The notes under the pieces are model-generated. The model was not told the origin of the DNA and did no database searches. It saw only the letters and a program-made list of their open reading frames with translations. The translations under genes were made by a program, and so were the position numbers. A stretch of DNA of 64,000 nucleotides from Nocardioides marmoribigeumensis (GTDB taxonomy: Bacteria; Actinomycetota; Actinomycetes; Propionibacteriales; Nocardioidaceae): assembly GCF_031458325.1 (NCBI RefSeq), contig NZ_JAVDYG010000001.1, forward strand, positions 4,154,001 through 4,218,000, read 5' to 3'. Of this stretch, positions 28,302 to 32,644 are shown one piece after another. The number at the start of each line of letters is the position of its first letter. The first letter of the stretch is position 1.

Positions 28302-29528
28302 TCAGAGGAGGATGCCGAGGCGGGCGTCGATGAGCTCGCGGACGGTCTCGGCCCCGGAGCCGTCGCCGGGGTACCACCCCTCGGCCCAGTCGTCGAGCAG
28401 CTTGATCGCCCGGGGGGTGTCGAGGTCACCGGCCAGCGCCTGGCGGACCGAGACGACGAGCTGGTTGGCCTGGACCTGGGTGGTGGAGCCCAGCTGGGCC
28501 CGCCACGCGGCGAGCCGCTTCTCGGCCTCGGCCAGGTCGTCGTCGTGCCACTCCCAGTCGGAGCGGTAGTGGTGGGCGAGCAGCGCCAGGCGCAGCACCA
28601 TCGGGTCGACGCCCTGCTCGCGCAGCCGGGAGACGAAGACCAGGTTGCCCAGCGACTTGGACATCTTCTCGCCCTCGTAGCCGACCATCCCGGTGTGCAC
28701 GTAGTTGCGGGCGAAGAGCAGGCCGGGGAACGCCGCCTGCGCCTCGGAGGCGCTCATCTCGTGGTGCGGGAAGACCAGGTCGTTGCCGCCGCCCTGGACG
28801 TCGAAGTGCTCCCCCAGGGTGCTGAGCGCGATGGCGCTGCACTCGATGTGCCAGCCCGGTCGGCCACGGCCGAGCGGGGTGTCCCAGGCGGGCTCGCCGG
28901 GCCGCTCGGCGCGCCAGAGCAGGCAGTCGAGGGCGTGGCGCTTGCCGGGGCGGTCGGGGTCGCCGCCCCGCTCGCCGAAGGTCTCGAGCATCTCGGCGTC
29001 GGTGAGCTTGGCGAGCTGGCCGAAGGCCGGGTCGGCGTGCACGTCGAAGTACCAGTCGTCGTCGACCTGGTAGGCGTGGCCGAGGTGCTGCAGCTGCTGG
29101 ACGAGCTCGACCACGAGGGGGATCGTCTCGACGGCGCCGAGGTACTCCGCCGGCGGGAGGATGCGCAGCGCCTCCATGTCGCCGCGGAACCGCTCGATCT
29201 CGCGGTCGGCGACGTCGCGCCAGTCCTCGCCGTCACGCTCGGCGCGCTCGAGCAGCGGGTCGTCGACGTCGGTGACGTTCTGGACGTAGCGCACCTGCAG
29301 GCCCATGTCGCGCCAGGCACGGACCACGAGGTCGAAGGCGAGGTAGGTCGCGGCGTGCCCGAGGTGGGTGGCGTCGTAGGGCGTGATGCCGCAGACGTAG
29401 ATGCGCGCCTCGTCCCTCGCCGTGGTCGAGGGGCGGAGCGCGCGACGCTGGGTGTCGAAGAGCTGGAGGGTCGGGGAACGCCCGTGTCGCTCCAACGACG
29501 GCACGTCCGTGCCCTTCCAAGCCCGCAT
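28302..29528 (-). CDS. mshC: L-cysteine:1D-myo-inositol 2-amino-2-deoxy-alpha-D-glucopyranoside ligase (mycothiol synthesis)
   Basis: 408 residues. ATP-dependent step that adds cysteine to GlcN-inositol in mycothiol synthesis; evolved from cysteinyl-tRNA synthetase. Zinc ligand C46 in [19 protein letters not shown]-like H55-L-G-H58, zinc C230 (WHIECSA) and H255/H256 (FPHHE), KMSKS at 288-292. It is shorter than CysRS at the C-terminus, as expected for MshC. ATG 29528 follows TAGGCT by 7 nt, so it is predicted leaderless. Confidence 0.95.
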
Positions 29529-29535
29529 GGACCAG

Positions 29536-29541
29536 AGCCTA
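29536..29541 (-). promoter_or_regulatory. -10 element of mshC (leaderless)
   Basis: TAGGCT on the minus strand, 7 nt before the mshC ATG, in the 28-bp gap after the SCO1664-type gene. It implies mshC can be transcribed independently of the upstream trio. Confidence 0.55.
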
Positions 29542-29556
29542 CAAGTCCGGCCGCAG

Positions 29557-30393
29557 TCAGAACGCGGGCCACGGGATCGACGGCCAGCCGCGTCCCGGGA
29601 CGGGCATCGAGCCTGCCCGCAGCAGCCGCTCCGCACGTCGTTCGAGGACCACGACCTCGGCCGCGGTGAGCAGGTCGGCGAGCCGGTCGCGCAGCCCGTC
29701 GGGCTCGCGCAGGGCCGCCAGCACACGGCGTACGCCGGACTCCACGTCGTCGTCCAGCGCCTGGCCGGCCCAGCCCCACAGGACGGTGCGCAGCTTGTTC
29801 TCGACGTGGAAGCACACCCCGTGGTCGACGCCGTAGCGGTGGCCGTCGCCCATCGCCAGGACGTGGCCCCCCTTGCGGTCCGCGTTGTTGACCAGCACGT
29901 CGAAGGCGGCCATGCGCCGCATCGGGCGGGAGTCCTCGTGGATCAGCGAGACGTCGTTGCCGGCGCCGTCCTCGGCGTCGAGGACGTGCAGGAAGCCGGC
30001 CGGGACCCGCCCCCGGGGGCACAGGTCGACCGGGTCGGGCACGCCCGGCCTGGGCTCGGCGGGCTCCTGCCACTGCTGGACCATCCCCGGACCGTGGGGC
30101 CCGTCGCGCAGCAGCGTCAGCGGCACGACGTCCCAGCCGAGGGCGTCGGAGACGAGGTAGGCCGCCCGCTCGCGCCCGGCGAGCGTGCCGTCCGGGAAGT
30201 CCCACAGCGGCCGCTCCCCCGCCACCGGCTTGTAGATGCAGGCGACGGACACCTCACCCAGCACCGCGTCGGCGAGGAAGGCGGCGTTGGAGGCGGGCAG
30301 GATGCGCCCGCGGAGCTCCAGGTCACCCTCGGCGAGGGCGCGGTCGGTCGACGGCGAGGTCAACGGCGACGGAAGCCGTTCATGCGCGGGCAC
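29557..30393 (-). CDS. SCO1664-family protein (PI3/4-kinase-like)
   Basis: 278 residues. Conserved actinobacterial protein that resembles phosphatidylinositol-kinase catalytic folds: VACIYKPVAGERPLWDFPDG contains the putative ATP-binding Lys, FDVLVNNADRKGGHVL the catalytic-loop Asp/Asn, and YGVDHGVCFHVE the metal-binding D-x-G-like segment. Function not established. GTG 30393 overlaps the DUF3090 gene by 34 bp; TTG 30363 (4-nt overlap) is an alternative start. It belongs to a conserved mshC-linked trio. Confidence 0.88.
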   Translation of the reverse strand: MPAHERLPSPLTSPSTDRALAEGDLELRGRILPASNAAFLADAVLGEVSVACIYKPVAGERPLWDFPDGTLAGRERAAYLVSDALGWDVVPLTLLRDGPHGPGMVQQWQEPAEPRPGVPDPVDLCPRGRVPAGFLHVLDAEDGAGNDVSLIHEDSRPMRRMAAFDVLVNNADRKGGHVLAMGDGHRYGVDHGVCFHVENKLRTVLWGWAGQALDDDVESGVRRVLAALREPDGLRDRLADLLTAAEVVVLERRAERLLRAGSMPVPGRGWPSIPWPAF

Positions 30394-30920
30394 AGGTGGC
30401 CGTCGGGGTCGAGCGGGTTGCCGCAGAAGTCGCAGCTAGGCCGCCCCGCCGAGACCACGACCTTGGCGCGCTCGCAGAACGCCCGCGCCGCCGTGGGCGG
30501 CAGGACGACGACCACGACCTCGCGCTCGGTCTCGGGATCGACCAGGTCCTCGGGCCCCGCGACGTCCTCCTCGATCGCGAACACCTCGACGATCACCCGC
30601 TGGGCGTCGTCGTCCCAGGCCAGCGTCATCGTGCCGGCCCGGAACTCCTCCTCGATCGGGGTGTCCAGGGGCTCGCGGTCGACCGAGTCCTCGGGGGTCA
30701 GCGCCGGGACGATCTGCTCGTCGGAGGCACCGGTCAGGGTCTGCAGCAGGTCGTCGAGCATCGCCTCGATGCGCTCGGCGAGCAGCTGCACCTGCTGCTT
30801 CTCCAGCGCGATGCTCACCAGCCGTCCCTGGGCGCGCGCCTGGATGAAGAACGTGCGCTGCCCCGGCTCGCCGACGGTGCCGGCGACGAAGCGGTCAGGT
30901 GGGTCGAAGCGGTGCTCCAT
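30360..30920 (-). CDS. DUF3090 protein with C-terminal zinc-ribbon-like motif
   Basis: 186 residues. N-terminal FFIQARAQGRLVSIALEKQQ and central acidic beta-rich region typify DUF3090. The tail CDFCGNPLDPDGHLCPR looks like a zinc knuckle. Unknown function; it always travels with the SCO1664-type protein and a phosphomutase in actinobacteria. The gap from the phosphomutase stop is 21 bp. Confidence 0.92.
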   Translation of the reverse strand: MEHRFDPPDRFVAGTVGEPGQRTFFIQARAQGRLVSIALEKQQVQLLAERIEAMLDDLLQTLTGASDEQIVPALTPEDSVDREPLDTPIEEEFRAGTMTLAWDDDAQRVIVEVFAIEEDVAGPEDLVDPETEREVVVVVLPPTAARAFCERAKVVVSAGRPSCDFCGNPLDPDGHLCPRMNGFRRR

Positions 30921-30941: not shown

Positions 30942-31640
30942 TCACGCACCGCCGCCGACGACGGCGTCGGAGGAGCGGCGGGCCGGCGTGCGGCCCTTCT
31001 TCTGCGGCGGGGTGAGCCCGGCCAGGTCACCCGCCGTGGTGTTGCTCATCAGCACGAAGGGCCGCTCGGGGGTGTAGCGGACCACCGAGATCGAGGCGGG
31101 CTCCACGTGGATGCGCTGGAAGGCGTCGAGGTGCATCCCCAGCGCGTCGGCGAGCACCGCCTTGATCGGGTCGCCGTGGCTCACCGCGACCCAGACCGCC
31201 CCCGGGCCGTGCTCGGCCTCGACCTCCGCGTCCAGCCGGCGCACGGCGGAGACCACGCGGGCGGACATCGCCGCGAGCCCCTCGCCCTCGGGGAACGTGG
31301 CTGCCGACGGCTGGGCCTGGACGACGCGCCAGAGCTTCTCCTTGGCCAGGTCCTTGAGGGCCCGGTTGGTCCACTCGCCGTAGTCGACCTCGACGAGGCC
31401 CCGGTCGCTGGACAGGGGCACGTCGGGGTGCGCCCTGGCCAGCGGCCGGGCGGTCTCCCGGCACCGCTCCAGGGGGCTGGTGACGATCCGCGCGACGCGC
31501 GTGCCGGCGAGCCGCTCGGCGGCCCGCTCGGCCTGCCCGCGTCCGGTGTCGTCGAGGTGGACCCCCTTGGTGCGTCCGGCGAGGACGTGGGCGGTGTTGG
31601 CGGTGCTGCGCCCGTGGCGCAGAAGGACGACCGTAGCCAT
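30942..31640 (-). CDS. Histidine phosphatase-superfamily protein (MSMEG_4193-type phosphomutase)
   Basis: 232 residues. Catalytic RHG motif in VVLLRHGRSTANT, second His in VAVSHGDPIKAVLAD, acid E in VEVDYGEW. The C-terminal 20 residues are basic and low complexity. Probably first gene of a DUF3090/SCO1664/mshC run. ATG 31640 lies 6 nt after TACGGT, and its -10 overlaps that of the divergent corA. Confidence 0.92.
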   Translation of the reverse strand: MATVVLLRHGRSTANTAHVLAGRTKGVHLDDTGRGQAERAAERLAGTRVARIVTSPLERCRETARPLARAHPDVPLSSDRGLVEVDYGEWTNRALKDLAKEKLWRVVQAQPSAATFPEGEGLAAMSARVVSAVRRLDAEVEAEHGPGAVWVAVSHGDPIKAVLADALGMHLDAFQRIHVEPASISVVRYTPERPFVLMSNTTAGDLAGLTPPQKKGRTPARRSSDAVVGGGA

Positions 31641-31646
31641 GGGCTC

Positions 31647-31652
31647 ACCGTA
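31647..31652 (-). promoter_or_regulatory. -10 element of the phosphomutase gene, overlapping the corA -10
   Basis: TACGGT on the minus strand, 6 nt from the ATG at 31640. Its first two bases (31651-31652) are shared with the plus-strand TAGAGT of corA. Confidence 0.55.
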
Positions 31653-31656
31653 GAGT
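31651..31656 (+). promoter_or_regulatory. -10 element of corA, overlapping the divergent -10
   Basis: TAGAGT, 7 nt before the corA ATG at 31664. Only 23 bp separate the two divergent start codons, so polymerase cannot occupy both promoters at once. Confidence 0.6.
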
Positions 31657-31663
31657 GCCGGTC

Positions 31664-32644
31664 ATGATCGTGGACTGCGCGTGGTACCGCGACTGCAAGC
31701 GCCGCGCGGTGGACGTGACCCCGGGGCTCCTCGAGCGCATCCGCGAGGAGCCCGCCGAGACCCGCGGCTTCGTCTGGGTCGGGCTGCACGAGCCGTCGCA
31801 GGACGAGATGCAGCTGATGCAGAACGTCTTCGACCTCCACCCCCTCGCGGTCGAGGACGCGATGTCCAACCGGCAGCGGCCCAAGGTCGAGCCCTACTCC
31901 GACATGCTCTTCATGGTCCTCAAGACCCTTTGGTACGTCGACGAGCGCGACGAGGTCGAGACCGGCCAGGTGGCGATCTTCCTCGGCCCGGACTTCGTGG
32001 TCACCGTCCGCCAGGGCGCCGGTGTCCAGCTCGGCAGCATCCGCCACGACCTCGAGCAGCGCGACGACCTGCTCACCCACGGGCCGACCGCGGTGGCGTA
32101 CTCGGTCTGCGACCGGATCGTCGACGGCTACGAGGACGTCGCGGCCGAGCTGGAGGTCGACGTCGACGAGGTCGAGGAGTCGGTGTTCTCCCCCGGGCGC
32201 ACCCGTGACTCCCAGCGCATCTACGTCCTGAAGCGGGAGGTCGCCGAGGCTCGTCGGGCGGTCCACCCGCTGCGGGTCCCGATGGGTCGCTTCGCGTCGG
32301 CGTCGTACGCCTTCCTGCACGAGGACTCCGCGCCCTTCTGGCGCGACATCGCCGACCACGTGGTCCGTGTGGACGAGGCGGTCGAGACCCTCGACCAGCT
32401 GCTGTCGACGGCGTTCGACGCGCACCTCGCGCGGATCTCGGTCGACCAGAACGAGGACATGCGCAAGATCTCGGCCTGGGTCGCGATCGCCGGTGTGATG
32501 ACGCTGGTGGCCGGCGTCTACGGGATGAACTTCCAGCACATGCCCGAGCTCGGCTGGCACTTCGGCTACGCCTACGCGCTCGGCCTCATGGCGGGGCTCT
32601 CGGCGATCCTCTACCGGATCTTCAAGAAGTCCGGGTGGCTCTAG
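31664..32644 (+). CDS. corA: CorA-family magnesium/divalent cation channel
   Basis: 326 residues. Pentameric inner-membrane channel: a large cytoplasmic domain, two C-terminal membrane helices (about 270-286 and 303-321) and the signature GMN at 287-289 (VYGMNF). ATG 31664 is supported by TAGAGT 7 nt upstream. It converges on uppP with a 4-bp gap. Confidence 0.95.
   Translation: MIVDCAWYRDCKRRAVDVTPGLLERIREEPAETRGFVWVGLHEPSQDEMQLMQNVFDLHPLAVEDAMSNRQRPKVEPYSDMLFMVLKTLWYVDERDEVETGQVAIFLGPDFVVTVRQGAGVQLGSIRHDLEQRDDLLTHGPTAVAYSVCDRIVDGYEDVAAELEVDVDEVEESVFSPGRTRDSQRIYVLKREVAEARRAVHPLRVPMGRFASASYAFLHEDSAPFWRDIADHVVRVDEAVETLDQLLSTAFDAHLARISVDQNEDMRKISAWVAIAGVMTLVAGVYGMNFQHMPELGWHFGYAYALGLMAGLSAILYRIFKKSGWL

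Follow-up and report, generated by a model that had tools for sequence, protein, structure and literature searches.

A probable compact, doubly leaderless bidirectional promoter between a putative phosphomutase gene and corA in Nocardioides marmoribigeumensis

Bidirectional promoters carry a pseudo-symmetrical -10 sequence that serves both directions, with overlapping -10 elements on opposite strands and transcription start sites (TSSs) 7-25 bp apart; a spacing of 18 bp is the commonest, and 10 and 23 bp are also common (Warman et al.; PMC12825309, PMC10268837). Leaderless promoters of actinobacteria have been described separately. TANNNT is the dominant -10 element in Mycobacterium tuberculosis, where there is no -35 consensus (PMC3898074), leaderless mRNAs are frequent in mycobacteria (PMC5741613), and both TANNNT promoters and leaderless mRNAs occur in Propionibacterium acnes (PMC3848588). 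Cortes et al. found closely juxtaposed divergent promoters to be common in M. tuberculosis, and one divergent leaderless pair of that organism, prpD/Rv1129c, has starts 120 bp apart (TSSs 1254630 and 1254510; PMC3898074). On promoters of actinobacteria that are both leaderless and bidirectional or divergent, the literature we searched, from whose coverage most subscription journals are absent, held nothing on point.

We analyzed a 64,000-nucleotide stretch of the N. marmoribigeumensis genome (contig NZ_JAVDYG010000001.1, positions 4,154,001 to 4,218,000), referred to as the window herein. Read directly, positions 31638-31666 are CAT GGGCTCACCGTAGAGTGCCGGTC ATG, so that the ATG of a putative phosphomutase gene at 31640 (minus strand) and that of corA at 31664 (plus strand) enclose a gap of 23 bp (Table 1). 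A preliminary description of this separation, of the coordinates of a TACGGT and a TAGAGT hexamer, and of the TA step that they share proved correct base for base. The phosphomutase frame scored 306 bits against TIGR03848 (cut-off, 204) and is the first gene of a minus-strand run that continues with genes for a TIGR03847/DUF3090 protein, an SCO1664-family protein, and MshC. For the CorA frame we obtained 196 bits against Pfam PF01544 (cut-off, 27) and 199.0 bits against TIGR00383, slightly below the cut-off of 200.75. Automatic ORF calling placed the corA start at a GTG at 31655; in relatives the protein starts (M-I-V-D) at the position corresponding to 31664, which makes the ATG there the better choice.

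Table 1. Features of the phosphomutase/corA locus (positions in the window) and three similar pairs elsewhere in the genome (positions with genome and contig handles)
Feature	Position	Strand	Details
Mycothiol ligase MshC	28302..29627	-	TIGR03447 E 8.8e-179; first 34 residues of the stretch used lie outside the family match, start provisional
SCO1664-family protein	29557..30393	-	TIGR03843 E 1.4e-105
TIGR03847/DUF3090 protein	30360..30920	-	TIGR03847 E 2.8e-69; PF11290 E 2.1e-64
MSMEG_4193-family putative phosphomutase	30942..31640	-	232 aa; TIGR03848 E 8.6e-92; His_Phos_1 E 2.2e-47
Intergenic region	31641..31663		Entire 23 bp taken up by two -10 elements and discriminators; shorter than the gaps in four other genomes of the genus (38, 38, 57, and 58 bp)
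Phosphomutase -10 element, TACGGT	31652-31647	-	6 nt to ATG; predicted TSS 31640
TA step common to both -10 elements	31651..31652	both	T31651/A31652
corA -10 element, TAGAGT	31651-31656	+	7 nt to ATG; predicted TSS 31664 (or 31663)
CorA-type magnesium/cobalt transporter	31664..32644	+	326 aa; PF01544 E 1.4e-57
TA-sharing 23-bp divergent pair, L074	G000:C1:1059928-1059956		Same genome
TA-sharing 23-bp divergent pair, L076	G000:C1:3780644-3780672		Same genome
TA-sharing 23-bp divergent pair, L077	G000:C1:4079963-4079991		Same genome

The hallmark of leaderless actinobacterial promoters, a TANNNT about 6-7 nt upstream of the start codon, is present on both sides of the gap. Neither gene has a Shine-Dalgarno-like run between its predicted TSS and its ATG, and there is no space for one. 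The proposal that each -35 region lies within the coding sequence of the opposite gene holds by geometry, which places the two regions at 31628-31633 and 31670-31675, but our search of the opposite coding sequences with spacers of 15-20 found no hexamer matching TTGACA at more than three of six positions. From the -10 positions only, the predicted TSSs (31640 and 31664) are 24 bp apart, and with the canonical -10-to-TSS distance (31640 and 31663) they are 23 bp apart. The site resembles the bidirectional promoters of Warman et al. (PMC12825309, PMC10268837) in its pseudo-symmetrical -10 sequence, in the bases shared by its opposite-strand -10 elements, and in a predicted TSS spacing that falls within their 7-25 bp range at or next to the common value of 23. 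It differs from them in being a predicted double leaderless site of a high-GC actinobacterium, with no recognizable -35 element. With the leaderless TANNNT promoters (PMC3898074, PMC5741613, PMC3848588) it shares the 6-7 nt distance before AUG or GUG and the lack of both a Shine-Dalgarno sequence and a -35 consensus; unlike those published, the two predicted here face apart and have two bases in common. The site is probably a further member of the known bidirectional-promoter type, and its predicted double leaderless form is its only unusual feature.

The motif itself recurs elsewhere. In its exact spacing, CAY-N6-ANNNTANNNT-N7-RTG, it has five matches in the 4.44-Mb genome, with none for the reversed control; what shows both -10 elements to be real is their conservation in relatives, not rarity. 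We looked for CorA in 120 genomes from the same family (Nocardioidaceae), and the sequences surrounding the top hits yielded 65 loci, window included, with the divergent phosphomutase/corA pair. All 65 loci have a TANNNT 6-8 nt upstream of the phosphomutase start (shuffled-gap mean, 0.86), and 48 have one at that distance from the corA start (shuffled-gap mean, 0.75). Both starts are so preceded in 48 of the 65, as against a mean of 0.014 and a maximum of 1 when the intergenic bases were shuffled. A constant distance from -10 element to start codon combined with a gap of variable length is what leaderless transcription predicts. This conservation strongly supports the earlier view that there are two divergent leaderless promoters here, and both are very probably real, each with its predicted TSS at its own start codon. 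The corA element is the less conserved of the two, with 17 of the 65 loci lacking TANNNT. By eye, most of these 17 corA genes carry (G/C)ACAAT about 6 nt before the start (e.g., L025, L027, L032, L037, and L050), which suggests a second putative form of -10 element in part of the Nocardioidaceae.

Beyond the family, the phosphomutase-side TANNNT is kept, next to other neighbors, in most of the genomes fetched from Pseudonocardiaceae, Microbacteriaceae, Arthrobacter, and other actinobacteria, with Amycolatopsis, Curtobacterium, and Cryobacterium among the genera concerned. Among the actinobacterial loci fetched, corA adjoins the phosphomutase gene only in those of the Nocardioidaceae type. One record, L151 (contig WNZI01000005.1), is titled Vibrio cholerae strain 35D and holds an actinobacterial, Arthrobacter-like phosphomutase locus; it is probably mislabeled or contaminated.

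The spacing between the genes is a different matter. The preliminary description named variable, non-overlapping spacing in related genomes as an outcome that would refute it, and such spacing is what we found. Across the 65 loci the gap between start codons runs from 18 to 175 bp, 32-33 bp being commonest. Each of the four further genomes examined from the genus has a longer gap (Table 1) with non-overlapping -10 elements. The elements are non-overlapping in 46 of the 48 two-promoter loci. Overlap was found in the window (2 bp) and at L047 (G028:C17:134376-134399), where just 18 bp separate the start codons of the two genes and TAGCCTA reads as a TANNNT -10 element in either direction; this arrangement is more extreme than that of the window. 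Loci with gaps of 30-33 bp, which come from several genera, nearly all have 7 bp between their -10 elements; the distances from element to start codon range from 6 to 8. We considered this 7-bp interval as a constrained spacing and rejected it, as it had 34 matches genome-wide, eight of them at this locus, versus 44 for the next spacing; shared ancestry is its most likely explanation.

Alignment of the genus sequences suggests how the overlap arose. The TAGAG block beside the phosphomutase -10 element is kept in the window and in L006, L007, and L008, and the window lacks a block of 12-15 nt that carries the corA -10 element (TAGGGT or TAAGGT) in its relatives. The overlap thus looks like the outcome of a deletion specific to this lineage, some 12-15 bp in size, by which the old corA -10 element was lost, as read from five divergent sequences in which its borders are uncertain.

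Taken together, these results make it probable that the 23-bp region works as a compact bidirectional promoter with two sigma-70-type (TANNNT) -10 elements and two leaderless mRNAs. With the -10 elements only 6-7 nt from the start codons, each mRNA would begin at its own AUG. The phosphomutase promoter would be old and spread across actinobacteria, with corA placed opposite it in the Nocardioidaceae. Loss of a short stretch lying between these -10 boxes and the start of corA would then have removed the ancestral corA element, and the TA of the phosphomutase -10 element may have been reused as the beginning of a new one (TAGAGA-like to TAGAGT). If so, the comparison shows how a symmetrical -10 element can take over its neighbor's promoter after a small deletion. 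Polymerase would be able to occupy the site in only one orientation at a time. The likeliest outcome is expression in both directions that is weak, constitutive, and for the most part independent, and that suffers interference only when one of the two sides is strongly activated.

The same deletion could be read differently, with only the phosphomutase promoter active, TAGAGT a chance remnant, and corA silent or read from elsewhere. The loss of the block with the ancestral element and the looseness of TANNNT as a motif both fit this account. We nevertheless consider it unlikely because TAGAGT stands 7 nt from the start, as corA elements do in relatives, because corA retains an intact reading frame of 326 aa that matches its family strongly, and because a chance TANNNT at 5-8 nt in the shuffled gap is expected about 0.75 times in 65.

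Less likely again is a true switch at the level of polymerase, in which the shared TA would allow expression of either corA or the mshC-linked operon but never both, with selection acting on the overlap for this effect. The overlap at T31651/A31652 is real, and at bidirectional promoters two polymerases facing opposite ways cannot be bound simultaneously (PMC12825309). However, overlap, which an exclusive switch would be expected to preserve, is not conserved among the relatives, being missing from the four other genomes examined in the genus and from 46 of the 48 two-promoter loci. Nor does the known behavior of such sites favor competition: at five Escherichia coli bidirectional promoters, from which the competition rule derives, output in one direction did not go up at basal activity when the other was lost, and repression was seen only with one direction strongly activated (PMC12825309). 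The footprint of polymerase is about 70 bp. From this we infer that even a spacing of 32 bp would be too short for two polymerases to sit side by side, which makes exclusion independent of the shared TA; steric exclusion at the site is likely, and it would hold equally in most of the relatives with non-overlapping elements. We also know of no link between magnesium transport and mycothiol synthesis that requires exclusion. The suggestion in the preliminary description that overlap makes corA and the mshC-linked trio mutually exclusive is thus unsupported, and the proposed gene switch is better recast as a case of a known promoter type. That neither hexamer is a promoter is very improbable: the bare pattern does occur five times in the genome, but both elements keep a fixed distance from the start codon while gap length varies almost tenfold.

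Finally, we looked at how often the TA-sharing layout recurs. Four of the five matches in the genome of the window lie between two frames of coding-type composition; the three besides the present locus (Table 1) pair an amidohydrolase with an unnamed frame, a mannose-1-phosphate guanylyltransferase-like frame with a TIGR03089 frame, and an fdhD-like frame with an unnamed one. Across 100 genomes of the family there were 374 TA-sharing matches versus 77 for the reversed-pattern control, and 22 of 34 examined matches (own genome included) lay between divergent coding-like frames. This control does not filter out sites that combine a genuine leaderless promoter with a chance half-match. In 91 genomes of the same class outside the family the excess was small (257 versus 192), with 14 of 28 between divergent frames. 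Non-overlapping spacings were rarer in the family sample, with 44 matches versus 1 in the control for 8 bp between the -10 elements and 34 versus 2 for 7 bp. Abutting elements (0 bp, fixed spacing) gave 1 versus 0 in the 100 genomes, a form that needs two more A/T bases, so that its contrast with the overlapping form does not prove that overlap was selected. With two fewer fixed bases required and many orthologues among its matches, the overlapping form may owe its frequency to easy origin and common descent. The 18-bp class showed no enrichment by count (109 versus 116 in the control), and 22 of 29 sampled matches were between divergent coding frames. It is a tentative and rather doubtful possibility that the Nocardioidaceae have recurrent divergent pairs, with start codons 18 or 23 bp apart and leaderless mRNAs on both sides, whose entire intergenic region is one shared pseudo-symmetrical -10 element, and that this extreme packing couples or balances their expression. 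TA-sharing divergent pairs of this family, predicted to be leaderless and with start codons 18-23 bp apart, are ready sites for testing polymerase interference outside E. coli. The largest number of TA-sharing matches among the 100 family genomes was 14 (mean, 3.7), in G028, the genome that holds L047.
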